DNA from: Deltaproteobacteria bacterium
GTDB lineage: Bacteria; Desulfobacterota; Binatia; Binatales; Binataceae
Direction of reading: 5' to 3'
Length of the DNA: 58,667 nt
Assembly (NCBI GenBank): GCA_021799495.1
Contig: JAJZAI010000020.1
Coordinates: 1-58,667, forward strand
The number at the start of each line of letters is the position of its first letter. Positions within the stretch are counted from its first letter, which is position 1. The notes beneath the pieces were generated by a model. It ran no database searches. It saw nothing but the letters and a program-made list of their open reading frames with translations, and was not told the DNA's origin. Positions 25,384 to 38,391 of the stretch are shown one piece after another. A program made the position numbers and the translations under genes.

Positions 25384-25472
25384 GGCCTATCCCCGCATGT
25401 GCGGGGCAACCGGCGACCCGAGCTACCTACAGCTCTTTGCGCAGGGCCTATCCCCGCGTGTGCGGGGCAACC
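25384..25472 (-). CRISPR. Leader-distal end of the I-E array, separated from the main array
   Basis: Two 28-bp repeats (25384-25411 and 25445-25472) flank one 33-bp spacer, with the same 61-bp period and the same repeat as the main array. The outermost repeat differs at one base (CATGTG for CGTGTG on the plus strand), as expected for the degenerate terminal repeat. The array is transcribed leftward, so this is its oldest end. It is cut off from the main array by 1,601 bp. Confidence 0.9.
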
Positions 25473-26108
25473 GCTTGGCGATGGCTTCTGGATCTGTCCG
25501 AAAACCTTCTGCGGATGACCGGCGAAGATATGGTGAACATCCCGCGCAAGTACAACGAGGATTGGACCGGCCGTTTGAGCGCGCGGTTCCTGCTGCTGGC
25601 CAACGAACTGCCGAAGTTCTATGACAACAGCACTGCGTTGCCGCATCGCTTCATCATGCTGCGGACCGTCCGGACTTTTCGCGGCAAGGAAGACCTGCGG
25701 CTCGAAGAAAAGCTGAAACTCGAATTGCCGGGCCTTTTGAACTGGGCGATTCAGGGATGGTTCAGGCTGCGGGATCGCGGTTATTTCGTGCAGCCGCCCA
25801 GCGCGGCCGATATGGCCGAGGAACTCGTGGAAATGGCCAGTCCGCTGGCCAAGTTCATCGACGAAGCCTGTTTGGTCGGTCCGGAGCATAGCGCGACGGT
25901 CAACACGCTCTATCTCCACTACGGCCGGTTTTGCGACCGTTTCAAGGTCCATCCCGTTGCTATAACGGTTTTCGGCCGCGACCTGCGGAGCGCGATGCCG
26001 GGGTTGAGCGTGACCAAACCGCACGGTGAACCACGATGTTACGTCGGGATCGCGCCACGGGAGGACGCCGTGCCTCAAAATGACTTTGAATCAGAAAAAC
26101 GTTGGTGA
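25473..26108 (+). pseudogene. Phage/plasmid P4-family primase-helicase, C-terminal fragment
   Basis: The first codon after the CRISPR repeat reads directly into the middle of a P4/D5-type primase-helicase: LLRMTGEDMVNIPRKYNEDWTGRL, ARFLLLANELPKFYDNSTALPHRF, LPGLLNWAIQGWFRLRDRGYFVQP, then a C-terminal winged-helix-like TVFGRDLRSAMPGLSVTKP. About 211 residues remain; complete members have roughly 450-900. The primase part and the Walker A/B motifs are missing. The frame continues backward through the repeat but this is fortuitous. The gene normally serves replication of phages, satellites and plasmids. Confidence 0.85.
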
Positions 26109-26270
26109 ACGCGGTGAACCACACAGGGAACCGCAATGCCACATCAGTGCGCGCCAACCGCGCGTTGCTCCGCCCCGAAAACCCGTCGAATCCAAAAAGT
26201 GTTGATAAATCCTACGAAATTGACCATTTTGACGAATTTGCGGTGCAATTTTTCAAACATGGCTATACGT

Positions 26271-26419
26271 CGTGAACCGCATGAACCGCTATATTCCTTT
26301 ATTCTTATTTTCTATAGCCTCATTTTCGCTGTTTGTTCTCTTTTTCGTTTTTCGTTCGCCTTTCGCGCGCGCGCGTGTAGAGCAAAGAGGAGGGGCGATA
26401 GCGGTTCATGCGGTTCACG
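26271..26419. repeat. Perfect 22-bp inverted repeat built from TGAACCGC units
   Basis: Arms 26271-26292 and 26398-26419 are perfect reverse complements, 105 bp apart. Each arm contains TGAACCGC twice at a 9-bp step. Further GTGAACC/GGTGAAC-like copies occur at about 26023 and 26104-26135 near the primase stop. The interval between the arms is AT-rich and has no supported gene. Iteron-like repeats beside a replication gene suggest an origin or a replication-protein binding region. Confidence 0.6.
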
Positions 26420-26609
26420 GTGTGAGACGGCGTTTGATTTTCTGCGGTTTCGGTTTATAGAGCCTGACGTCGGTTTTTCTGGAAGCTATAGCGAGGCCAC
26501 CCCCGTCCGTGGCAAGCCCTTTTTCATCCGGGAGACGCCAATAAGATTCGACCTGAAACGGTTGATGCGCTACCCACAATATCGTGGAAGAGAGTTGTTT
26601 AAGTTTCAC
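26415..26609 (-). CDS. Small protein of unknown function, tandem paralog 2
   Basis: A 64-residue protein begins at GTG 26609, overlapping the stop of the upstream paralog (GTGA), so it is translationally coupled. It shares KLKQLSS-ILW-HQPF-ESY-RLPD with its neighbour and a later AI-S-T-LYKPK, about half of all positions. Conservation between the copies at the protein level, plus the coupling, argues it is coding. It ends just inside the right arm of the inverted repeat. I recognise no family. The HQPF and RLPD blocks are the conserved core. Confidence 0.6.
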   Translation of the reverse strand: MKLKQLSSTILWVAHQPFQVESYWRLPDEKGLATDGGGLAIASRKTDVRLYKPKPQKIKRRLTP

Positions 26610-26791
26610 GATTTTTTCGCCTTCAGGGTTTTTGGCTTATAGAGCATCCCTCGGGTTTCTGCGGAAACTATAGCGATATGACCCGTGCTCTCATCAGGCC
26701 ATGTCGCATCCGGGAGACGCAAATAAGATTCGATCCGAAACGGTTGATGCGTCGTCCACAATATCACGGAAGAGAGTTGTTTAAGTTTCAT
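26606..26791 (-). CDS. Small protein of unknown function, tandem paralog 1
   Basis: ATG 26791 is preceded by a perfect AGGAGG (plus-strand CCTCCT at 26798-26803) with 6-7 bases spacing, giving a 61-residue protein. It aligns along its length with the next gene: MKLKQLSSVILWTTHQPFR, ESYLRLPD, HIAIVSAETR and LYKPK. A TTG three bases upstream is not needed. It lies 47 bp after the RHH-like gene and probably shares its transcript. The protein is small and mixed-charge with a basic tail; function unknown. Confidence 0.65.
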   Translation of the reverse strand: MKLKQLSSVILWTTHQPFRIESYLRLPDATWPDESTGHIAIVSAETRGMLYKPKTLKAKKS

Positions 26792-26838
26792 CAAAACCTC
26801 CTGGCGCGGAGACTCCGGCCTTCAGGCCGGGGAAGGCG

Positions 26839-27030
26839 TTACTCCTTTTCCTTTTTGGACCGTTTAGGCCGATAGATGGTGTCCATGATGACCATTCGGA
26901 CCCATGCAGAAAACGACAGTCCGCGCGTGCGCGCATAGTTCACCGCGTCCTGGTACGTAGCACTCGAAAGGCGCAAGTTGACATGGCGGTCCTTATTTTT
27001 CTGGCCGTCGGGGTTATTCGGTGGGTTCAT
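26839..27030 (-). CDS. Ribbon-helix-helix-like small DNA-binding protein
   Basis: From ATG 27030 (GGAGAAGG upstream) a 63-residue basic protein: a disordered MNPPNNPDGQKNKD head, a strand DRHVNLRLSS, helix ATYQDAVNYARTRG, then LSFSAWVRMVIMDTIY and a Lys-rich tail. This beta-alpha-alpha order fits MetJ/Arc-type or plasmid partition/mobilisation ribbon-helix-helix proteins, which bind DNA as dimers. The frame runs open into the CRISPR repeat, but the ribosome site sets the start. Only 43 bp separate it from the repeat at 27074, so its promoter is truncated or lies within the array. Confidence 0.65.
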   Translation of the reverse strand: MNPPNNPDGQKNKDRHVNLRLSSATYQDAVNYARTRGLSFSAWVRMVIMDTIYRPKRSKKEKE

Positions 27031-27073
27031 TTGGACCTTCTCCGGCTTCTTTGATTTCAGCGGTACAACCGCA

Positions 27074-29663
27074 GGCCTATCCCCGCGTGTGCGGGGCAAC
27101 CGCATCGCCGCCGTCCTCCGGCTTCGGAACCGCCGGCCTATCCCCGCGTGTGCGGGGCAACCTCGTAGAGCTGGTTCGACGCGCCCGTCGATTTGGGCCT
27201 ATCCCCGCGTGTGCGGGGCAACCGGCGGGCGCGGCCTCGTTCGGTTTTGGTATTGGGGCCTATCCCCGCGTGTGCGGGGCAACCTTCAGCGCGAAATCGC
27301 GACCATCGCCGCTGATAGGCCTATCCCCGCGTGTGCGGGGCAACCCGGGTTGAGGTGCGCCGCACGATCAAGGCCGTGGGCCTATCCCCGCGTGTGCGGG
27401 GCAACCGGCGTCCTCGATAGCATCGAGGCGGGGAAAACCGGCCTATCCCCGCGTGTGCGGGGCAACCACGACCACTCCCGGAGCAGACAAGCGCGGGCAG
27501 GGCCTATCCCCGCGTGTGCGGGGCAACCGTTTGACGTGTATATTGGGCGCCAGCATCCACGGGCCTATCCCCGCGTGTGCGGGGCAACCCAAAAGGGCTT
27601 TGCCATGATCGATATCGCGCGCGGCCTATCCCCGCGTGTGCGGGGCAACCTCCGATCGCGAGACCGAGTCGCGCGCCGCCGCGGGCCTATCCCCGCGTGT
27701 GCGGGGCAACCTTGACGTCGAGCGCATCGCAATAATAGGTCGCAGGCCTATCCCCGCGTGTGCGGGGCAACCCGGAAAGCGAAAACTGGCGCGCCGGGAT
27801 GGCGCGGCCTATCCCCGCGTGTGCGGGGCAACCCAGAACGCCAGCGTCAAATACGGCGCCGCCTGCGGCCTATCCCCGCGTGTGCGGGGCAACCTAGGAA
27901 AGTCCCGTATCGACAACGCCCGCGACAGGCCTATCCCCGCGTGTGCGGGGCAACCCTGCGCGGCGTTCCATCAGCGCGCGTCTCCACAGGCCTATCCCCG
28001 CGTGTGCGGGGCAACCTAGGAAAGTCCCGTATCGACAACGCCCGCGACAGGCCTATCCCCGCGTGTGCGGGGCAACCTTCGGGCGCAGGAACGGTACGGA
28101 GTCAGCAGTCGGCCTATCCCCGCGTGTGCGGGGCAACCAAATGCTCCTCCGAGATGCGCTCGGGAATATAGGGCCTATCCCCGCGTGTGCGGGGCAACCG
28201 TCGATACCCTGCTCGAAGGAATCAGCCATCAGGGCCTATCCCCGCGTGTGCGGGGCAACCCACGATCTTTTTTATCGAGGGCGAGCTGCGCGGGGCCTAT
28301 CCCCGCGTGTGCGGGGCAACCTGCTCGAAAACCGGCGAGACGTAGCGATAGGCCGGCCTATCCCCGCGTGTGCGGGGCAACCGCGACCGCGTCCTCGTAA
28401 CGCAGCCGCGCGTCCGGCCTATCCCCGCGTGTGCGGGGCAACCCGCGTCGTTCATCGCTGACTCGCGCGCCTGAAGGGCCTATCCCCGCGTGTGCGGGGC
28501 AACCGTCGATACCCTGCTCGAAGGAATCAGCCATCAGGGCCTATCCCCGCGTGTGCGGGGCAACCGCCTGCAATCGCGACGAGCTCGTCACGGTCTATGG
28601 CCTATCCCCGCGTGTGCGGGGCAACCGGATTTTCTGCTCGGCCTTCGACGCCGAGGTGCGGCCTATCCCCGCGTGTGCGGGGCAACCTGAAGCCGCCGCG
28701 AGCGACGGTCTCACGGACGAGGCCTATCCCCGCGTGTGCGGGGCAACCCGATGCGTCGGTTGGAGCCAAATGACTGCGCCGGGCCTATCCCCGCGTGTGC
28801 GGGGCAACCGACGATGAAGCTCGCGCATCAGGTCCTCGGCAAGGCCTATCCCCGCGTGTGCGGGGCAACCTCCATGTCCGCACGCGCATAGCACCCAGTC
28901 CTCGGCCTATCCCCGCGTGTGCGGGGCAACCTCAGGATTGAACGCGGCGTGCCTGGACCATCGCGGCCTATCCCCGCGTGTGCGGGGCAACCCCCTCTGA
29001 GACCGCCAAAAGACCGCCGCAATGCGGCCTATCCCCGCGTGTGCGGGGCAACCTGACCATGACCAAAAATGACCTTCTTTTGCTCCGGCCTATCCCCGCG
29101 TGTGCGGGGCAACCCGAGCTGGCGTGCGCGATTGTCGCGCTGGTGTAGGCCTATCCCCGCGTGTGCGGGGCAACCACGGTCGGCGAAAAACCCGCATGAA
29201 TGCTACGGGGCCTATCCCCGCGTGTGCGGGGCAACCCACACCGCCATCGGGCCGGTCTGTTCCGTACCAGGCCTATCCCCGCGTGTGCGGGGCAACCTTG
29301 CTTGTTCTTTGGTCATCGTCAGTCCTCTTCGGCCTATCCCCGCGTGTGCGGGGCAACCTTCTCTGACCCAAACATAAGAAGTTAAGCCAAAGGCCTATCC
29401 CCGCGTGTGCGGGGCAACCGGTTGCGCGCGGAAGCGGCGCCCACGCCTGAAAGGCCTATCCCCGCGTGTGCGGGGCAACCTCCGTGCGCCATGGGATGGG
29501 CCAGCCCGCTGCGGGCCTATCCCCGCGTGTGCGGGGCAACCCGCCAGCAACACCGATCTTTCCAATCCGGCGAAGGCCTATCCCCGCGTGTGCGGGGCAA
29601 CCTGCACAAGGCCGTCTTGGCGCTTGCCGCGCAATGGCCTATCCCCGCGTGTGCGGGGCAACC
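27074..29663 (-). CRISPR. Type I-E CRISPR array, 43 repeats and 42 spacers
   Basis: The 28-bp repeat (plus strand GGCCTATCCCCGCGTGTGCG then GGGCAACC) recurs every 61 bp from 27074 to 29636, giving 43 repeats and 42 spacers of 33 bp (or 29+32 if the I-E convention is used). On the minus strand it reads GGTTGCCCCGC...GCGGGGATAGGCC, the usual I-E hairpin repeat, so transcription is leftward from the leader at 29664-29776. Repeats look identical throughout. Two spacers are present twice: 27895-27927 = 28017-28049 and 28200-28232 = 28505-28537. The three cycling reading frames across the array are not genes. Confidence 0.98.
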
Positions 29664-29669
29664 TCTTGC

Positions 29670-29776: not shown

Positions 29777-30085
29777 CTATTCGCCTTCAGCGCGCGCCTC
29801 GCGCTTGCGCGCCAGAAAAACATCGTTGCACTGATGCAGCTCGTAGGAGGCCGAACCAAGCACCGCAATCTGCTGGCCGCCGTGCGCGAGCGGCTCCAGC
29901 CATGTCATCACGATGCCGCCGCCGCCGAGTTCGCCGAACCATTCCTCCATCACGGCCCAGACCCGCTCGCGCACCGCGCGATTCATCTTGGGCGCGGTGT
30001 AAACGCCCGGAGCGATTTCGAGCATGCAGGAAGACAGAAAGCCGCGAAACCGCGCGGCGACGTCACGGGTCACTATCACTGTCAT
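29777..30085 (-). CDS. cas2e: CRISPR-associated Cas2, type I-E
   Basis: The 102-residue protein has the I-E Cas2 pattern: MTVIVTRDVAARFRGFLSSCMLEIAPGVY at the N-terminus, then a WAVMEEWF helix and a GGIVMTWLEP strand. Two Cas2 subunits hold two Cas1 dimers together to form the complex that inserts new spacers. Its start overlaps the cas1 end by 23 bases. The C-terminal tail is charged. It is the last cas gene before the leader. Confidence 0.97.
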   Translation of the reverse strand: MTVIVTRDVAARFRGFLSSCMLEIAPGVYTAPKMNRAVRERVWAVMEEWFGELGGGGIVMTWLEPLAHGGQQIAVLGSASYELHQCNDVFLARKREARAEGE

Positions 30086-30950
30086 CGTCGAACAACTCCT
30101 TGATCTTGTCGATCATCGCGGAGACCAGCCGCTGTTTGCGGAAGGTACGGCCCGCGAGTTTGCGGGTGACGGATTCGAGCGTCGCGAAAGCCGGCGGACG
30201 CAGCCGCTCGAACTCGCGCACCGCGCCGAACGCCACCGGCAGGGTAACGGAATCGCGATAAAGGTCGGCGATATCGAGGCAGAAGGAAATCCCCGAGGCC
30301 TCGTGGATAAAGCCGATCTGCGGAATGGCGCCGGCGATCGCGGTCGCAACCATCGCGGCCGCCTCGACCGCGGTGGCGGCGTGATTGATCGCCTGATTGG
30401 GGCGGTCGTCGTGTTCCGGATTCTGGCGGTCGTAACGGCGACCGTCCCATTTGACGCCGAACTGGCGGGTCAGCAGGCGATAGGTCTCGCGCATCCGGGC
30501 GCCCTCGATACCGCGCAGGGTGTCGAGGTCGGAATCGGGCAGGACCTCGCCAAGCCGCCATGCGTACATGCGGCGCACGCAGCGGATCCGCGCCTCGGGA
30601 TCGGCCCATGCGCGGATTTGGCGGCGGGCGAGCGCCGAGTCGTCGGGACCGAACGGCATGCTCGCGTAAAGCCGCACGCCGCCTTCGCCGGTGAACAGGA
30701 TGCCGGTGCCGTGGCGCGCCGCGATCCGCATCGCGTCATGACTGACGGTCACGCCGGGACCAAGGACGAAGCAGGAGACCGTCTGAAAAGGGATCAGGTA
30801 TTCGCCGGGCGGGAGATTGTCATCGCCGCCCGCGATAAAGCGCAGCGTGCCGTCCTCGACCAGCAGATTGCCACGGCCAAGCCACATCAAGCCGTGGCGA
30901 TCGGCCTGCGGGATACGGGCGGTTTCGAGACCAAGGCGGCCTTTGAGCAT
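30063..30950 (-). CDS. cas1e: CRISPR-associated Cas1 integrase, type I-E
   Basis: The 295-residue protein has the metal-binding active site: Glu149 in RGIEGARMRETY, His216 in IGFIHEASG, and Asp226/Asp229 in LDIADLYRD. The flanking DGRRYDRQ and NQAINHAAT match E. coli Cas1. It is the integrase that joins prespacers to the leader-end repeat, with Cas2. All catalytic residues are present, so adaptation should be functional. It begins 36 bp after the cas6e stop and overlaps cas2. Confidence 0.98.
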   Translation of the reverse strand: MLKGRLGLETARIPQADRHGLMWLGRGNLLVEDGTLRFIAGGDDNLPPGEYLIPFQTVSCFVLGPGVTVSHDAMRIAARHGTGILFTGEGGVRLYASMPFGPDDSALARRQIRAWADPEARIRCVRRMYAWRLGEVLPDSDLDTLRGIEGARMRETYRLLTRQFGVKWDGRRYDRQNPEHDDRPNQAINHAATAVEAAAMVATAIAGAIPQIGFIHEASGISFCLDIADLYRDSVTLPVAFGAVREFERLRPPAFATLESVTRKLAGRTFRKQRLVSAMIDKIKELFDDDSDSDP

Positions 30951-30986
30951 CGGTGAAGCCTCCTTTCAGGAATTCCGTGCGGCGCC

Positions 30987-31733
30987 TCAATGGCTCAGCA
31001 GGAGCATGCCAAAACCGAAAGCGCGATGCCGGCCGAGGCCGCGCCGGAGCAGCGCGGCGAAGGCCGCGGGCGAACCGACTTCGAGCACGCCTTCGAGCGT
31101 CGCGTCGGGACGTTCGCAGCGTCTCAGGCGCGTATCGGGACCGGAGCGATCGCGGCGGGCGAGCCGCTGGCGCTGAAAGCGCGTCAGGCGCACTTCGCCG
31201 ATGCGGGGCAGCCGGGCGGCGCCGTCGCGGGCGAGTTCGCGCGCCAGCCAATCGCGATAGACCGCCTGGCGATCGACGAAGACATCGGGGCCGGCGCGCA
31301 GGCATTGATGGAGAAAGGCGTCGGTTTCGCGCGGGCCTTCGCCGCCGGCGCGTCCGCTGATGCGGACGATCGGGCAGACGCGCGCGGTGAAACGATAGAG
31401 CGCGCCGGCGCGCCATGCCGCCGGCATCGCTTTCGAGCAGAGCGAGTCCGGAACGAGCGCGTCAAGGGCGAGCGGATCGGCGAGCGCGCGGGCGCGCTCG
31501 GCGAGTTCATGATGATCGACGGACGCGTAGCCGTACAGGGTCAGGCGGCGGGCGCGATCGTCGCGCGCGGCGAACGGTCGCGGCGCGGCATCGCCGAACA
31601 GCGCGCGGGTCGCGGCGTGCAGGATATAGCCGCCGTCGGCGACACGCAGGTTGAGGCCGGAGCGATCGGCGAAGCGCATCAGCGCCAATTCGTCGAACTC
31701 GGCGCGGAGCATGAAGAGCGATTCATTGGACAT
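30987..31733 (-). CDS. cas6e: Cas6e crRNA-processing endonuclease
   Basis: A 248-residue Cas6e (CasE/Cse3): N-terminal ferredoxin-like fold with ALMRFADRSGLNLRVADGGYILHAATRALFG, and the C-terminal glycine-rich loop GLGRHRAFGFGMLLL that grips the repeat RNA. It cuts each repeat at the base of its hairpin to release crRNA with an 8-base 5' handle. A His in the GGYILHAA segment is a candidate for the general base. Its start overlaps the end of cas5 by 11 bases; a Met at residue 8 is an alternative start. Confidence 0.95.
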   Translation of the reverse strand: MSNESLFMLRAEFDELALMRFADRSGLNLRVADGGYILHAATRALFGDAAPRPFAARDDRARRLTLYGYASVDHHELAERARALADPLALDALVPDSLCSKAMPAAWRAGALYRFTARVCPIVRISGRAGGEGPRETDAFLHQCLRAGPDVFVDRQAVYRDWLARELARDGAARLPRIGEVRLTRFQRQRLARRDRSGPDTRLRRCERPDATLEGVLEVGSPAAFAALLRRGLGRHRAFGFGMLLLSH

Positions 31734-32433
31734 CGATGGAGTCCTCCAGAATGAAGCGGCGGCCGGCGTGGATTTGATTGGTCCAGTCGCGGTCGTCGGT
31801 CAGGGGCCGCGCGCCGCGCACATGCGGACCTTCGGCGGCGAACCACGCACGCATCTTTTCGCCCGGCCGGGCGTGCGGCGAACGCGGCGCGGCGGCAAGC
31901 GCGGCGCGCAGCGATTCCGCGGCGATGCGCATGAGGAAGATCGGCTCGGCCGGCAGGCAGGATTTGCGCCCGATGAAGAGCGGACGGGCGGGCGCGCGCA
32001 AGGCGGCTTCGAGCCGCGCGGCGTCGGGATCGGCGCCGGGCGGCGCGAGTTCGAGCGCGACCGTGTAAACCGCGTCGGCGAGATAGTCGCGCAGCCGGAT
32101 ATGCGTGCCGGTGCGGGTCGCCTCGGCGCCCGCGCGGCCCTGGACCACGCCGCGCGTGGTCCAGCCGCGCGCGAGGAACGGCTGCGAGAGATCGACCGTC
32201 TGGTAGTCGCGCAGCGGCTGGCCGGGCCGATCGCAGCGGACCGCGTAGACGATCCGCGCTTGCAGCGCCTGGAGCGCGGCGGCGTCGCGATGGTCGTAGC
32301 CGAGGGCGTTGCCGAGCAGCCCGGCGAGCATCGAACGCGCCGGATAACTCCGGGTGACGCCGCGGTAGTCGATGACGACGCCGCCGAACGAGATCAGCGG
32401 CGCGTCGAAGCGCAGGATTATGGCGTCGATCAT
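31723..32433 (-). CDS. cas5e: Cas5e Cascade subunit
   Basis: The 236-residue protein (CasD) shows the Cas5 N-terminal strand MIDAIILRFDAPLISFGG, then TRSYPARSMLAGLLGNALGYDHRD and TTRGVVQGRAGAEATRTGTHIRLRDYLADAVYTV. Cas5e holds the 5' handle of the crRNA in Cascade. It overlaps cas7 by four bases (ATGA) and cas6e by eleven, so expression is coupled. Confidence 0.96.
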   Translation of the reverse strand: MIDAIILRFDAPLISFGGVVIDYRGVTRSYPARSMLAGLLGNALGYDHRDAAALQALQARIVYAVRCDRPGQPLRDYQTVDLSQPFLARGWTTRGVVQGRAGAEATRTGTHIRLRDYLADAVYTVALELAPPGADPDAARLEAALRAPARPLFIGRKSCLPAEPIFLMRIAAESLRAALAAAPRSPHARPGEKMRAWFAAEGPHVRGARPLTDDRDWTNQIHAGRRFILEDSIDVQ

Positions 32434-33632
32434 TCGGTCTCCTCCACGCGCGCCGCGACCCAGCGGGCGAGTTCGGCGAGCGACGGGGCGCGCTCGTTAT
32501 CGTTGAGGACGGGCGCGAGACGTTCCGGACGAGTCATCGCGAGCGCGTTGCGCGCGGTGCGCCCGTAGCCGCGATCGAGGTCGCCGAGATGCGCCGCGAG
32601 CGCGTCGTAGGCGTTGGCGAGCGGATCGGGCGCGATCCGCACGGGCGTCAGGAAAGCGTTGGCGAGGGTGCGCGGCTGCGCCGACCCGGCCTCCGCCAGC
32701 ATCAGGGAGGCGTAGGCGTGGGGCGCGGTCGAGCCGAGCTTGGCGCCGGGCGAGACGGTGGCGATCAGATGGACCATCCGGCGGGCGACTTCGGCCGCGA
32801 GCTTGCGATCGGCGCCGAGGTTTCCGGCCAGGCCGGGCACGTCGATCGCGATATAGCCGTAGTAAAGGCCGCTGGTGAGTTCGGATGAATTGATATGGCC
32901 GGCGCCGAGTTCGGCCTCGGGGCCTTCCTGGCGCAGATCGTCGACGGCGGAGAAGTAGTCGCTTTCGGCCTGTTCGCCGTGGACGGTGAAGGCGTGGGCG
33001 ACATGGAGGGCGGCGTCGACGCGGGCGAGGATGTCGCCGGTGACCATGCGGCCGAACATCGCGGCGTCGAGTCCGGCGCCGAGCTTGAGCGTGCGGAGAT
33101 TCTCTTTCCGCTCTTTGGTGAAATGTTTGTCCACGGCTTTGGCCGCCTCTTTGGCGTCATTGAGGCTGGCGCAGATGGCTCGGGCCTCGGCGCGCAGGAA
33201 ATCGAGTTCAGGGCGGCCGAGGACCGTGACCTGATTCGACTGGATACCGGGCGCGGCGGCGGCGCCATCGTCGGCCTGCTTCTTCTTTTCGGCTTTGGCC
33301 TTGGCGCTTTCGCCCAGCACCAGCGCCATCACGGCCTCGGTGACGGCGTGGGCGAGTGCGGGATCGACGCCGTCATCCTTGACCAGGGGAGTCAAGACAT
33401 GGCGCTCGAAACTCAGGCGCGAGCGGACCGAGACGTTGCCGTCGGCGCAATTTTTGAGCGCTTCGGCGTCGTCGGCGCGGCGCCAATGACGCTTGAGGCA
33501 TTGCGAGGAAATTCGCGTGCGGACCGCGCCGCCGAACGGAATCCGTTTGGCGAGCCCGGCGTCGTCGCGATTCAGCAATGCGGCGGGATAGGAGGTCAGC
33601 GAGTGAATCTGGATAAAGCGATGCGAAGCCAT
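32430..33632 (-). CDS. cas7e: Cas7e Cascade backbone subunit
   Basis: The 400-residue protein (CasC/Cse4) has FIQIHSLTSYPAALLNRDDAGLAKRIPFGGAVRTRISSQCLKRHWR at the N-terminus and GHINSSELTSGLYYGYIAIDVPGL near the middle. Six copies normally coat the crRNA spacer. It is slightly longer than the E. coli protein (363 residues), with a Lys-rich insertion near residues 115-125. The start shares one base with the cse2 stop (TGATG). Confidence 0.97.
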   Translation of the reverse strand: MASHRFIQIHSLTSYPAALLNRDDAGLAKRIPFGGAVRTRISSQCLKRHWRRADDAEALKNCADGNVSVRSRLSFERHVLTPLVKDDGVDPALAHAVTEAVMALVLGESAKAKAEKKKQADDGAAAAPGIQSNQVTVLGRPELDFLRAEARAICASLNDAKEAAKAVDKHFTKERKENLRTLKLGAGLDAAMFGRMVTGDILARVDAALHVAHAFTVHGEQAESDYFSAVDDLRQEGPEAELGAGHINSSELTSGLYYGYIAIDVPGLAGNLGADRKLAAEVARRMVHLIATVSPGAKLGSTAPHAYASLMLAEAGSAQPRTLANAFLTPVRIAPDPLANAYDALAAHLGDLDRGYGRTARNALAMTRPERLAPVLNDNERAPSLAELARWVAARVEETE

Positions 33633-34168
33633 CAGTCGTTCTCCTTGGGATTGCGTTCGGTGTGAAAAATCACGTTGAAATAATCGTTGGCGATCGTTTG
33701 CCGGACGCTTTGTTCGTCGCCGCGTCCGTCGCTGAGCACGAGCCGGGCGAGACCGGTCAGATCGACCGGAGCGGCCGCGGCCGCGAGTTGATGCGTCACG
33801 GCGCGGACTTCGTCGAACAGCGGCTCGCCGCTCGCGCGCAGGAGTTTGTTGAGCCGCAGCTCGGAGACGCCGGCCTCGGCCAGCGCGGCGCCGAAGCGGC
33901 GGCTGGGATTATGCAGGCCGTCGAGCGCGGCAAGCGCGCGCAGAATCACGGCCCATCGGCGCAACGCGGTTTCCCGCGAATCGCCGCCGGCGGGCAATTC
34001 CGGGTCGAGCCGGGTGACGACGACGCGCCAGAATGCGGAGCCTCCGGGGTCGTCGGGTTTGAGCCGGCGCAGCTCGGCAAGGTCGCCGGTTCCGGCGTCG
34101 CGCAGCTCGGCCGCGATCTGGCCGATCAGCGAGCCGAGCGAACGAGCCTCAGTCGGTTGAGGATTCAT
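33632..34168 (-). CDS. cse2: Cse2 (Cas11e) small Cascade subunit
   Basis: ATG 34168 is chosen because GGAAGGAG precedes it; upstream read-through overlaps cse1 in another frame. The 178-residue helical protein has GDLAELRRLKPDDPGGSAFWRVV, the hallmark of Cse2, then RRWAVILRALAAL and a C-terminal NDYFNVIFH. Two copies line the belly of Cascade and hold the displaced DNA strand. It overlaps the end of cse1 by 20 bases. Confidence 0.95.
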   Translation of the reverse strand: MNPQPTEARSLGSLIGQIAAELRDAGTGDLAELRRLKPDDPGGSAFWRVVVTRLDPELPAGGDSRETALRRWAVILRALAALDGLHNPSRRFGAALAEAGVSELRLNKLLRASGEPLFDEVRAVTHQLAAAAAPVDLTGLARLVLSDGRGDEQSVRQTIANDYFNVIFHTERNPKEND

Positions 34169-35732
34169 TGGGTACTCCTTCCTGTTCGTTGGATTCACCA
34201 GCGGCGGCGCGCATCCGATGCGCGGCGCCATTGAAGACGCGGTCGGCGGCGGCGCGGGCGCGAAAGACCCGGGCGGCCGGAATCGGGGCGGATTGTTTGG
34301 CGTCGGCAAGCGTATTGCGAGCAAAGCCGAGTAACTGATGAAGCCATTTGATGCGCGCGGCCTCGAAGCTCAGGTCGAGATCGGCGAACAGTTCAGCGAA
34401 GAAGACGCGATCGACCTCGCGGTCGAAAGACGCGGCGAACGGATCAATCCGCGGATCACGGAAATTGAGCTTTTCGGGTCCGCCCTGAAGCAGGGCCGCG
34501 AGCGCCGGTCTAAGCGCTTTGGAGGCGACGTTCTTGACCTCCTCGATGCGCTTTTTTGAAGTCTCGCCGAGTCTCAAACGCCCGTCCTCGGTGGCGAGCC
34601 AGGCGCGGGCCTTCGGCGGCACGGGGATAACGCGCTCGTGGTAGCCGTCGGTGCCGCCTTGACCACGAACGAACACTTGGCAAATGACCGAGGGTTTTTC
34701 GCCGTCGACCGGCTGTACCTGGCTGGCAACGGCCGGCGCACGGTCGCCGGGAAAGAGCAGTCTCGGAATACGGTCATAGCGGAGATCGGTCGAAGTTACC
34801 GCCGTGCCGTCGCTCCTATTGGTTGGCACCCAAGGATCGCCAAGGGCCAATTTCTGTTTCTTTTGCCCCTCGGTCTCCGGGACGTCCACGCGTTGAACCT
34901 CGGTCGTAGTCCAGCGGGCGACGATTTGGCCGCGACCATCGATCAGCCGTATGCGTCGGCAAATCTCAATGAAAAACGGATCGAGTTCGGATATCGCGAG
35001 CTGCGCGATCCCGTCCCACGGTTCAAGCCACAACAAGGCGTGGCCACCGTCGGGGTCGAATCCGTGTTCCTCGGCAATTTTGTCGCGTACCGCGACCAGC
35101 AGATTCGTGTCGCGGACGAAACGGGTCGGCCAGGCGAGGTCGCGTGCGGCGGCGAAACACGGCCGATTGCCGAATCCACCGTTCATGCGCGCTATGCCGT
35201 AGTTCATCTTTCCGCCGTATCCTTCCATCGTCTGGAGGGATACGAGCGCATAAATCCAATGCTCGGGTGCGGGCGCGGCGATCCGCTCCATTTTGACGTC
35301 GTGGTTCTTGGCGGTCGCCAGCAGATCGATCGCGTCGGGCGTCGCGGTCGAGTTATCGTCATCCCATTCGGCGAGAGAGCCTTCGGGAACCGGCGGCTGC
35401 ATGAAGGCGGGCGCCTTCAGGTCCGGCACGATCAGGCGCCACGGCTCGTCGCGGCCGTCGGTCAGCGCGCGCATGACTTCGGCCCACTGTTCCGCGCCGC
35501 GCATCTTCGCCACGTCCAAAAGTCCCGCGTGAAAGGCCGCAAGCGCGCCGAGCTGGACCAGAAAGGCGTGCCAGGCGTGGAATTGATATGGCTGCAGCGC
35601 GGCGAACTCGAGCGGCTCGCCGCGCGCCAACGCGGCGAGAACCTCGGGCAGCGTCAGGCGTTCGAGCACGCCGCCGCCGGCGGTAGCGCCGATCAGGCGC
35701 TCGGTCAGCAGATTGAAACGATTCTCAGTCAT
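34149..35732 (-). CDS. cse1: Cse1 (Cas8e) large Cascade subunit
   Basis: From ATG 35732 (overlapping the cas3 stop by 8 bases) the 527-residue protein matches CasA/Cse1: MTENRFNLLTERLIG, VLAALARGEPLEFAALQPYQFHAWHAFLVQLGALA, then LMQPP-like FMQPPVPEGSLAEW and GYGGKMNYGIARMNGGFGNRP. Cse1 recognises the PAM on target DNA and recruits Cas3. The start codons upstream of 35732 are inside cas3 and are rejected. Confidence 0.96.
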   Translation of the reverse strand: MTENRFNLLTERLIGATAGGGVLERLTLPEVLAALARGEPLEFAALQPYQFHAWHAFLVQLGALAAFHAGLLDVAKMRGAEQWAEVMRALTDGRDEPWRLIVPDLKAPAFMQPPVPEGSLAEWDDDNSTATPDAIDLLATAKNHDVKMERIAAPAPEHWIYALVSLQTMEGYGGKMNYGIARMNGGFGNRPCFAAARDLAWPTRFVRDTNLLVAVRDKIAEEHGFDPDGGHALLWLEPWDGIAQLAISELDPFFIEICRRIRLIDGRGQIVARWTTTEVQRVDVPETEGQKKQKLALGDPWVPTNRSDGTAVTSTDLRYDRIPRLLFPGDRAPAVASQVQPVDGEKPSVICQVFVRGQGGTDGYHERVIPVPPKARAWLATEDGRLRLGETSKKRIEEVKNVASKALRPALAALLQGGPEKLNFRDPRIDPFAASFDREVDRVFFAELFADLDLSFEAARIKWLHQLLGFARNTLADAKQSAPIPAARVFRARAAADRVFNGAAHRMRAAAGESNEQEGVPNESSTD

Positions 35733-38391
35733 CAGCCGATTCCTCCATTTGCTTCGATAATGTTTCAGCGGGGCGTAAGCCCATCCGGTCGTAAACGAAA
35801 GCGCGATCGGCAAAGTTGAATCGAATCGATTCCGCTTCGGCGACGACGTGTTCGGCTTGCGCCTCGGCGGGCGCGCCCTTCGCGAGCCATCCGGGGATAG
35901 TCAGGCGGCGGATCGGCGCGCCGAACGGACCGGCCGGCGCACCGTCAAATTCAACGATGCGATCATCCTCGCCGAGGCGCGTGCGAATGCGGCTCTCGCT
36001 TGACGGAAAGCGGCAATCGGCAAACGGCTGGTCGCGATCGACGGCGTTGAGATTGGCCAGACGCCGGCTGGCGATCGATTCGCCGTCGCATTTTTGCGCA
36101 TGCTTCTTCCACGGACCGCCGAGTTCGGCTACGATCGCCTTGAGCGCCTCGGGATGGGTGGCGGCTTCGACCAGCCGCCGGTTCATCGCGGGAATTTCCA
36201 GAGTTTGGTAGGTTTCGAGCGCGCGCCAGGTCGCCTCCAGCACGCGCAGGTCGTCATACACCGTGCCGAAGCCGTGCTCGCCGCGGGCGGCGCCCTCGCG
36301 GCCGATCAGCGGCGTCAGATCGCGATCGGCGGGAACGAGAACGATCACGCGCGGCGCGCGGAACGGCTCCGGACGAGCGCCGCGGTCATGGCGATGGAGC
36401 CGGCCGATCCGCTGCAGCATCACGTCGAGGGGACAGAGGTCGGTGAGCATCAGGTCGGCGTCGAGGTCGAGGCTTTGCTGGACCGTCTGCGTCGCCGCGG
36501 CGACGCACGGCGAGCGCGAGTTCTTGCCGAAACAATCCTCCAGCCGCCCGTCGAGCGGCACGCGATCCTCGCGGGCGAAACGCGCGTGATGAGGCGCCGG
36601 GATACCGTTGAGCGCGAAAAGCCGATCCGCCGCATTCCTTTCGCCGGCGATCCGCTCCAGCTCGATTTGCGTGGCGACGCAATCGCCGACGGTATTGCGC
36701 ACGATCAAAACGCGCGCGCCCGCCAGCGCCGCGGCGAGCGCGCGGCTTGCGGCCGCGGCGAAGTCGCCGGCTGCGGACATGATTTCGACATTCACGGTTT
36801 TGGGCGGCGATTCGCTCATCAATTCCACGCGCGCAGGATAGCGACCGCCTCCGACAACCGTTGTCACGATCGGATACGGAACCCCGATCGCGCCGGCCAG
36901 GGGCGGAAGTTTCAGCCGGCTTGATAACGCCGCTCCGATCAGATTGGCGGCGGCGCCCGCGCCGAGGGTCGCCGACAAGAGCAGCGCATGGCCGCCGGCG
37001 GCGAGATGGAAGCGCAACGCCTCGCGCAGGATCTCCGTCATGTAGGCGTCCGAGGCGTGCACCTCGTCGACCACCAAAAACTGCCGCAACATCGCGGTCG
37101 CGCGCAGATGCGAATGCGAAACCATCAGCGCGGAGAGCAGGGACTGATCGACCGTGCCGACGCTGATCGCGCCGGCGAGATAGCGCTTCGGATGCTCTCC
37201 GGCCCATCGGCGAAAGCGGCATCGGAAGGCTTCGTCGTCGGGATGCAGAGTCTCGAATGGCGCCAGCCGCCGGCCCTCCGGCCCGTCGTCGAGCGGAAGA
37301 TAGCCGGGGACGGCGAGCGTCACCGGCGGCCGAACCGATTCGCCGGGAAAGGCGCGCGCCACCGCGTTTTCAATCCGGCGATGCATCTGGACGGCCGCAG
37401 TGCGGGTCGGCAGGGCGAAATAGAGTCCGTCGGCTTCACCCGCGTCGAACAGGCGAAAAAACCGCGCGAGCGCGGCTTCGGTCTTGCCGGAACCGGTCTC
37501 GCTCTCGAGGATCGCGAGGCTGCCGCGCCCCGCCGCGATCGGCAGCTCGAGCATCCGGCGCTGCGCCTGATTCGGCGCGAACTCAAAAATTTCCCCGAAC
37601 TCGCGCCGATCATCGTGGTATGCGGCGCGGGCGGGCGCGGAATCCAGGCCGATGTGGCGCAGGACGATCGGCGCCACGTGGCGGGCGAAGCCGATGCGGT
37701 CGCCGTCGCCGGGTTCGCTGTAACGGAAGACCGAACGGTCGGAGCCGATCCAGTCGGCGAGCGTGACCAGTCCGCAGAAGGCGTGCTGGAACCGTGGCGT
37801 CGCCGGGAGCGGCGCGGCGTCCGGGGCAAACGCGGCGGGAAACCATTCGCGAACTTTCGCGCTCAGCCGCGCGATTCCCGCGAACGGATCGCGGCCGTTG
37901 GGCTCGGCGCGCCAAATCTCAACCCTCGGACCGGAACCGCCGCCGGGTTCGCCTGGCTTCCCGTGATGCGCGATCGCCGCAATCAATAATTCGAGGCCCA
38001 AACCATCGGATGTCCACGACTGGATCTGGTCGAGCGGGAGGCTTCGACGAAGTTCGCGCTGTTGGGCCGACGGACTTGGGCCGAACAGATCGAGCAATGG
38101 CTGGACGTGGCCGGCTCGCGGCTGGCGGCTGCGGTCAGCCTTATTTTGAAAGCCAAGATTGAATTTACCAACGTCATGAAACGCCGCGAGCGCGGCCAGG
38201 CGCTGGATTTCCGATTCGGTCAGGTCGTCACGCCCGCCAAGCGCCGCCATGCGGCGGCGAGTCGGGGAGAGCCGCAGCAGCGTCTCGCAGACGGCGGACA
38301 CGTCGGCGCAATGATCGATCAACGGATGCCATTCCATAGTCAATTCGCCTTGCGCCAGCTTTCCCCAAAAGCAATCCGGCATGCCTTTCAT
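35725..38391 (-). CDS. cas3: Cas3 helicase-nuclease, type I-E
   Basis: The 888-residue protein has an N-terminal HD nuclease (EWHPLIDHCADVS, LAAFHDVGKFNLGFQNK with the His-Asp pair at 72-73) followed by a superfamily 2 helicase: ESETGSGKTEAAL (Walker A, near residue 300), VVDEVHASDAYM (DEVH box) and LLSATLG (motif III), with LMLTDLCPLDVMLQRIGRLHRHDRG as motif VI. It shreds target DNA after Cascade binding. AAGGAGG precedes the ATG. It is the first gene of the cas operon. Confidence 0.97.
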   Translation of the reverse strand: MKGMPDCFWGKLAQGELTMEWHPLIDHCADVSAVCETLLRLSPTRRRMAALGGRDDLTESEIQRLAALAAFHDVGKFNLGFQNKADRSRQPRAGHVQPLLDLFGPSPSAQQRELRRSLPLDQIQSWTSDGLGLELLIAAIAHHGKPGEPGGGSGPRVEIWRAEPNGRDPFAGIARLSAKVREWFPAAFAPDAAPLPATPRFQHAFCGLVTLADWIGSDRSVFRYSEPGDGDRIGFARHVAPIVLRHIGLDSAPARAAYHDDRREFGEIFEFAPNQAQRRMLELPIAAGRGSLAILESETGSGKTEAALARFFRLFDAGEADGLYFALPTRTAAVQMHRRIENAVARAFPGESVRPPVTLAVPGYLPLDDGPEGRRLAPFETLHPDDEAFRCRFRRWAGEHPKRYLAGAISVGTVDQSLLSALMVSHSHLRATAMLRQFLVVDEVHASDAYMTEILREALRFHLAAGGHALLLSATLGAGAAANLIGAALSSRLKLPPLAGAIGVPYPIVTTVVGGGRYPARVELMSESPPKTVNVEIMSAAGDFAAAASRALAAALAGARVLIVRNTVGDCVATQIELERIAGERNAADRLFALNGIPAPHHARFAREDRVPLDGRLEDCFGKNSRSPCVAAATQTVQQSLDLDADLMLTDLCPLDVMLQRIGRLHRHDRGARPEPFRAPRVIVLVPADRDLTPLIGREGAARGEHGFGTVYDDLRVLEATWRALETYQTLEIPAMNRRLVEAATHPEALKAIVAELGGPWKKHAQKCDGESIASRRLANLNAVDRDQPFADCRFPSSESRIRTRLGEDDRIVEFDGAPAGPFGAPIRRLTIPGWLAKGAPAEAQAEHVVAEAESIRFNFADRAFVYDRMGLRPAETLSKQMEESADD

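Follow-up and report, generated by a model that had tools for sequence, protein, structure and literature searches.

CRISPR (clustered regularly interspaced short palindromic repeat) arrays interrupted by mobile DNA are already known, and the type I-E array on contig JAJZAI010000020.1 (58,667 b, the whole stretch analyzed and hereafter the window) of a deltaproteobacterial genome of the family Binataceae is a further example, in which the insert is a truncated phage fragment. Prophage integration into the CRISPR loci of Streptococcus pyogenes was reportedly described by Varble et al. in 2021; phage DNA likewise lies within a CRISPR array here, but it includes no integrase, is not a whole prophage, and bears no sign of the repeat having served as an attachment site. 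In Mycobacterium tuberculosis, IS6110 interrupts the direct-repeat (CRISPR) region, as set out in PMC7820667. The two cases are alike in that foreign DNA divides an ancestral array into two sections with the same repeat and that the interrupted unit was recognized from its leftover pieces; they differ in that, in M. tuberculosis, a repeat was disrupted by an entire transposon that made a 3-bp duplication, whereas here a truncated phage-type fragment is found within a spacer slot with no fitting duplication. Inactivation of CRISPR-Cas by insertion sequences in cas genes is also described (PMC10359306); mobile DNA is again present in a CRISPR-Cas locus here, but the cas frames are open and it is the array that carries the insert. 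The primase fragment in the insert resembles the C-terminal end of the P4-family primase genes of phages (PHROG 6088, 1829, and 864), with 42–48% identity to the best relatives, yet unlike those genes it holds only about the last quarter. Overall, we consider it likely that DNA of a phage (or prophage), about 1.57 kb long, was inserted within an old 33-nt spacer that occupied the second slot of the array as counted from its leader-distal end.

The window comprises one entire contig of a 3.43-Mb assembly (89 contigs, 98% complete). The array, at positions 25384–29663, consists of 45 repeats of 28 nt and 43 spacers of exactly 33 nt each, with a period of 61 bp, and its sole odd interval is a 1,601-bp gap at 25473–27073. 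An intact repeat (25445–25472) borders this gap on the left, while on the right the repeats resume at 27074 and run to 29663, with repeat sequence and orientation identical on both sides. Only the terminal repeat (25384–25411) differs from the others, by one substitution. A preliminary description of this DNA had stated that the two sections share repeat, orientation, and period, that the smaller section (25384–25472) ends in a degenerate terminal repeat, and that the length of the gap is not a multiple of 61, all of which was borne out by the coordinates of the repeats and spacers (1,601 = 26 × 61 + 15). The neighboring genes cas3-cse1-cse2-cas7-cas5-cas6-cas1-cas2, together with the 61-bp period of the array, fit a type I-E locus; seven of these genes had at least one model over its cut-off, Cas6e scored 36.9 bits versus a curated cut-off of 45.2, and the frames of all eight were open. 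Because the cas genes are on the minus strand (29777–38391), the leader is placed on the right of the array, and the gap thus corresponds to the second slot from the leader-distal (old) end. Two pairs of spacers were found to be identical, 27895–27927 with 28017–28049 (two units apart) and 28200–28232 with 28505–28537 (five units apart). These probably represent internal duplications via recombination between repeats, and the repeats of this array therefore apparently do recombine.

As judged from its composition and content, the insert is foreign, phage-type DNA. Its G+C content of 0.540 was below that of all 511 overlapping 1,601-b stretches elsewhere in the contig (minimum 0.543), and its tetranucleotide distance was 0.411 compared with a mean of 0.262 (SD 0.049, maximum 0.436; 248 stretches). 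It was detected once in its own genome, with no further copies, and was not found in any of the six other genomes of the genus examined. An open frame on the plus strand, which extends from the repeat to its stop over 211 residues, matched the C-terminal part of P4-family primases, including PHROG 6088 (E 6e-31, residues 10–199) and the P4-family primase PHROGs 1829 and 864. Helicase/C-terminal homology of this family was present, with Pfam matches below their cut-offs. The frame does not represent a complete gene, as it begins after the DAR stretch of its relatives and is without nucleotide-binding motifs. The inspected proteins among the best relatives were 750–845 aa, compared with which the predicted product is only about the last quarter, with roughly the first 550–640 residues missing, and no function is expected for the fragment for this reason. 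Thus, the claim of the preliminary description that foreign DNA split a single array near its old end was upheld by the phage-like content, the deviant composition, and the lack of a match to the insert in the six genus mates.

The search of phage and plasmid sequences proposed in the same description was productive at one level and not the other: tblastn with the primase fragment identified 124 phage and 5 plasmid records, all at less than 60% identity, while blastn of the insert against the phage and plasmid records returned no nucleotide match. A primase match was found in 40 of the 395 genomes sampled from the phylum (the own genome counted). A profile search of the viral contig set (viral_contigs) gave 412 candidate stretches with relatives, of which 80 were kept (best identity 48%), and a search for close matches to the primase peptide gave none in either viral_contigs or genome_contigs. 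The inspected relatives have phage-type neighbors, among them genes for helicases, a RecT/Bet annealing protein, an exonuclease with a Cas4 domain, or an integrase, and a terminase small subunit was matched once, weakly; the primases of L057, L058, and L061 adjoin phage-type recombination or helicase genes, and that of L053 adjoins an integrase gene.

The start of the primase homology relative to the left repeat was examined by scoring the residues of the window against column profiles of relatives in a log-likelihood change-point analysis. The profiles were built from 79 distinct relatives (94 rows before removal of identical ones) with E-values up to 1e-15 and alignment starts no later than residue 16, read ungapped over the upstream residues, and with L051–L056 set aside as duplicates of loci already included or as loci other than primase. 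The optimum placed the beginning of homology at residues 7–10, which corresponds to 18–27 nt after the left repeat. A flush start at residue 1 fell 10.8 bits short of the optimum across the 79 relatives, and 18.7 bits short when only the 26 that share the loop register were used. Residues 1–7 scored −9.0 bits, whereas in leave-one-out scoring the relatives averaged +5.1 (SD 5.5) and just 1 of the 79 scored as low; for the 26 relatives of the same register the score was −18.5 compared with a minimum of −7.1 (none of the 26 as low). Alignments pointed to similar positions. The homology started at residue 8–9 in the four closest relatives of the phylum, at residues 7–15 in nine of the ten PHROG alignments listed (residue 73 in the remaining one), and at residues 7–12 in 61 of 80 viral alignments, the others starting at residues 1–3 (16 alignments) or at residues 5, 6, and 15 (one each). 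The four closest phylum relatives have the sequence DARLG[SG]RxxQxxxxERLLxISGED in this region, where the window has (repeat)-AWRWLLD-LSENLLRMTGED. Together, these scores suggest that the approximately 18–27 nt after the left repeat, beginning GCTTGGCGATGGCTTCTG, are probably not phage DNA and fit the remains of a 33-nt spacer, such that the left junction would be located inside the spacer.

These results bear on how the borders had been read. The preliminary description had called both borders flush and the foreign DNA lodged exactly between two repeats; the repeats are indeed intact on both sides, but recognizable phage sequence probably begins within the spacer slot and not at the repeat. 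Nor does the argument hold that such a picture is unusual for a random insertion, because any insertion inside a spacer leaves both repeats whole, and by simple arithmetic 34 of the 61 insertion points per repeat-spacer unit fall in the spacer or at its edge.

The right border was examined along with signatures of known integration routes. A putative ribosome-binding site of the ribbon-helix-helix (RHH) gene at the right end of the insert, identified by eye at about 27036–27043, leaves space on the right for at most about 15 nt of leftover spacer. No target-site duplication of 2–12 bp that would fit a 33-nt spacer was detected; when a spacer of 32 or 34 nt was assumed, a few duplication matches of 2–3 bp were observed. 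Likewise, no inverted repeat of at least 16 nt was found to join the ends of the insert, and a shorter end-to-end inverted match was at chance level (reached by 47 of 300 shuffles). Neither an integrase nor a transposase was recognized among the scanned open reading frames (ORFs) of the insert. The insert thus lacks what defines a transposon or insertion sequence (a transposase, terminal inverted repeats, and a fitting target-site duplication), and it also differs from a prophage or satellite, as the recognized genes are a truncated primase and three small ORFs and not a near-complete gene set. A direct match between the gap ends was noted by eye at 25483–25493 and 27044–27058 (GGCTTCT), which misfits a duplication around a 33-nt spacer.

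Based on these findings, we suggest that one old type I-E array was interrupted when a piece of phage or prophage DNA, approximately 1.57 kb in length, entered a 33-nt spacer, with approximately 18–27 nt of this spacer left over on the left side and approximately 6–15 nt on the right, if nothing was duplicated or lost. On the simplest account, the phage fragment was captured during repair of a break in the old spacer, most likely by illegitimate end joining or template-switch repair. Such an illegitimate capture is more likely than a dedicated transposition or integration event because the primase is truncated, no integrase or transposase was found, and no fitting target-site duplication was detected. 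No match to Ku was found in the own genome (the control was positive in 1 of 14 named genomes), which makes classical nonhomologous end joining unlikely and implies another repair route. The insert was probably tolerated because it is among the oldest spacers.

Several observations weigh against an insertion within a spacer or weaken the case for it. The primase family has a variable loop ahead of residue 10, and for this reason the missing homology over 7 residues is suggestive only. The 16 viral alignments that start at residues 1–3 reach nearly to the repeat, and in some relatives tblastn runs through the stretch in question. Homology beginning as late as residue 12 scored only 3.3–4.5 bits below the optimum and would mean that the full 33-nt spacer is still present on the left. 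For the right junction, the two small ORFs (sm1 and sm2) and the RHH gene offered no useful relatives by which to place it. When the leftmost 18-mer of the gap was used in a protospacer test, it was found in six stretches, none of which continued with the right end of the gap. In addition, the direct match between the gap ends, when scored locally over 60 b at each end, was slightly better than chance (score 17, reached by 5 of 300 shuffles), and no genome with an empty site was found.

The preliminary description had favored either recombination at the repeats or integration of an over-long fragment. In the latter scenario, Cas1-Cas2 integrated a 1.6-kb phage fragment as the second surviving spacer from the old end, with both ends flush, and 42 normal spacers were gained later. 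The intact repeats at both sides of the gap, the truncation of the phage-type fragment at or near the repeat, and the viral alignments that reach residues 1–3 are compatible with this, but the left end of the gap is unlike primase over approximately 18–27 nt, and a spacer of 1,601 bp is at odds with the exactly 33 nt of all 43 other spacers, the length that marks spacers acquired by Cas1-Cas2 in this array. Furthermore, type I-E Cas1-Cas2 is described to size spacers by a structural ruler (PMC5059440), and the frames of the insert are still open even though the fragment would predate 42 spacers. We regard a giant spacer as unlikely on these grounds. An element may alternatively have integrated or recombined at a CRISPR repeat and then lost all but 1.6 kb by deletion. 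The prophages said to integrate into CRISPR loci of S. pyogenes would provide a precedent, and the two identical spacer pairs point to probable repeat-mediated rearrangement in this very array. Counter to this, the scanned ORFs of the insert include no integrase, and the later deletion would need to have ended near the repeat by chance. An exact 26-nt core of the repeat was not found when viral_contigs was scanned, so the free element carrying this repeat, which the preliminary description had suggested looking for, did not emerge there. With no second copy of the insert in the genome either, this route appears about as unlikely, and a precise placement between repeats, whether as a true giant spacer made by Cas1-Cas2 or by repeat-directed recombination, is on the whole improbable.

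The remaining explanations would do away with an insertion altogether. A wrongly joined metagenome contig is conceivable given that the assembly is in 89 contigs and the window is the whole of one of them, but it would require two joins, no other site of the genome was found to contain the insert sequence, and the left junction probably falls within a spacer instead of a repeat; we attach little probability to such an artefact. That the locus comprises two separate arrays, with the insert as the native leader region of the smaller one, is highly improbable. The degenerate terminal repeat at the far end of the small array agrees with this idea, though a single split array explains it likewise. 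The region upstream of the small array, compared over 113 b, was unlike the leader (local score 14, reached by 175 of 300 shuffles), in contrast to the leader of L055, which does resemble that of the window (score 135), and the stretch upstream of the small array is mostly primase coding sequence.

Related loci were compared with the array. One array, that of L055/L165, was found to combine the repeat of the window with a closely related cas operon, the leader and cas genes being 86.6% identical over 5.5 kb. None of the 16 spacers of the L055/L165 array was shared in a comparison that covered L055 (the G005 array, whose repeat is a variant, being set aside), and the L055/L165 contig ends inside the array, before the old end. 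On the left flank of the array, matches within the genus were partial, the best outside the window being 67% over about 0.7 kb, with none demonstrably the same locus. The exact repeat core was also detected in three further stretches from two assemblies labelled as other lineages, namely L164 and L166 (both from a metagenome-assembled genome labelled Panacagrimonas) and L167 (from one labelled Rhodobacteraceae), and L164 has cas-like DNA pieces of 64–76% identity. This distribution suggests either that the type I-E locus was transferred horizontally or that the contigs were wrongly binned. G004, a genome of the same genus, has a lone repeat-like sequence with 3 mismatches that is not part of an array (L137, 4813–4839). 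The spacers of the array were also compared with the insert, for which the best match had 13 mismatches of 33, and with the primase-bearing loci, for which there were only short matches of 13–22 b among the matches listed.

Beyond the primase fragment, the insert contains three small ORFs and an iteron-like region. The predicted products of sm1 and sm2 are 56% identical, and these two putative genes are a tandem duplication. No relatives of sm1 were found in the phage records or viral_contigs, and none of sm2 in the other 394 of the 395 phylum genomes. The RHH protein had weak matches in 5 of the 394 other genomes, in one phage record (E 0.3), and in 11 plasmid records (E 0.2–4), four of which are annotated mobC. 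When all three were compared with the loci of the primase relatives, nothing better than E 0.02 was obtained (best 25 rows). In the iteron-like region, TGAAC[C/G] occurs in 7 copies within 451 b, compared with at most 3 across 1,068 overlapping stretches elsewhere, and 7 copies were reached in none of 2,000 Markov sequences; the motif was picked after viewing the sequence, and its counts are descriptive. A perfect 22-nt inverted repeat (26271–26292 and 26398–26419) lies in the same region, for which a replication origin is only a possibility. Most of the 25 primase relatives listed had few copies of TGAAC[C/G], with 0–5 counted over as much as 1.5 kb downstream of the primase. In L024, a similar GCGGTTCA follows the primase in four copies. 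In this same set, an 8-mer was found in 11 copies after the primase in L071 and L075, and one in 4 copies in L024. Some of these elements (L024, L071, and L075) may thus have a replication origin after the primase. The features of the locus are listed in Table 1.

Table 1. Features of the interrupted type I-E locus and its insert (positions in the window)
Feature	Position	Strand	Basis or remarks
Leader-distal end of array	25384–25472	-	one repeat, one 33-nt spacer (25412–25444), and the terminal repeat, which has a single substitution
Gap between two intact repeats	25473–27073	.	1,601 bp; probable spacer remnants at both ends and about 1.57 kb of phage-like DNA
Probable left remnant of interrupted spacer	25473–25493	.	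end likeliest at about 25490–25499, less likely up to 25505; start of primase homology
3′ part of P4-family primase gene, about 204 residues, 5′ part missing	25494–26108	+	PHROG 6088, E 6e-31
Iteron-like region, possible replication origin	26000–26450	.	7 TGAAC[C/G] copies on both strands; inverted repeat 26271–26292 / 26398–26419
Small ORF sm2, 64 aa	26415–26609	-	GTG start overlaps sm1 stop; no family over curated cut-off
Small ORF sm1, 61 aa	26606–26791	-	56% identical to sm2
Ribbon-helix-helix-type protein, 63 aa, weakly NikA/Arc-like	26839–27030	-	NikA-like, E 0.001, below curated cut-off
Main part of type I-E array	27074–29663	-	42 spacers (33 nt) between 43 repeats (28 nt); leader side at 29664
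Type I-E cas operon cas3-cse1-cse2-cas7-cas5-cas6-cas1-cas2	29777–38391	-	profile matches

Overall, the insertion is most likely an ordinary kind of damage and not the sign of a new mechanism for storing memory, and it provides no pointer to a new mechanism of adaptation. If the insert were proven to be a true giant spacer, this would be relevant to the question of how tightly integration is constrained by the Cas1-Cas2 ruler. As an interruption within a spacer, the locus provides an example of how intact flanking repeats may be mistaken for an exact insertion between repeats, and an insert of this type would make annotation programs split the array in two. Furthermore, it records one capture of phage DNA in a little-known lineage.

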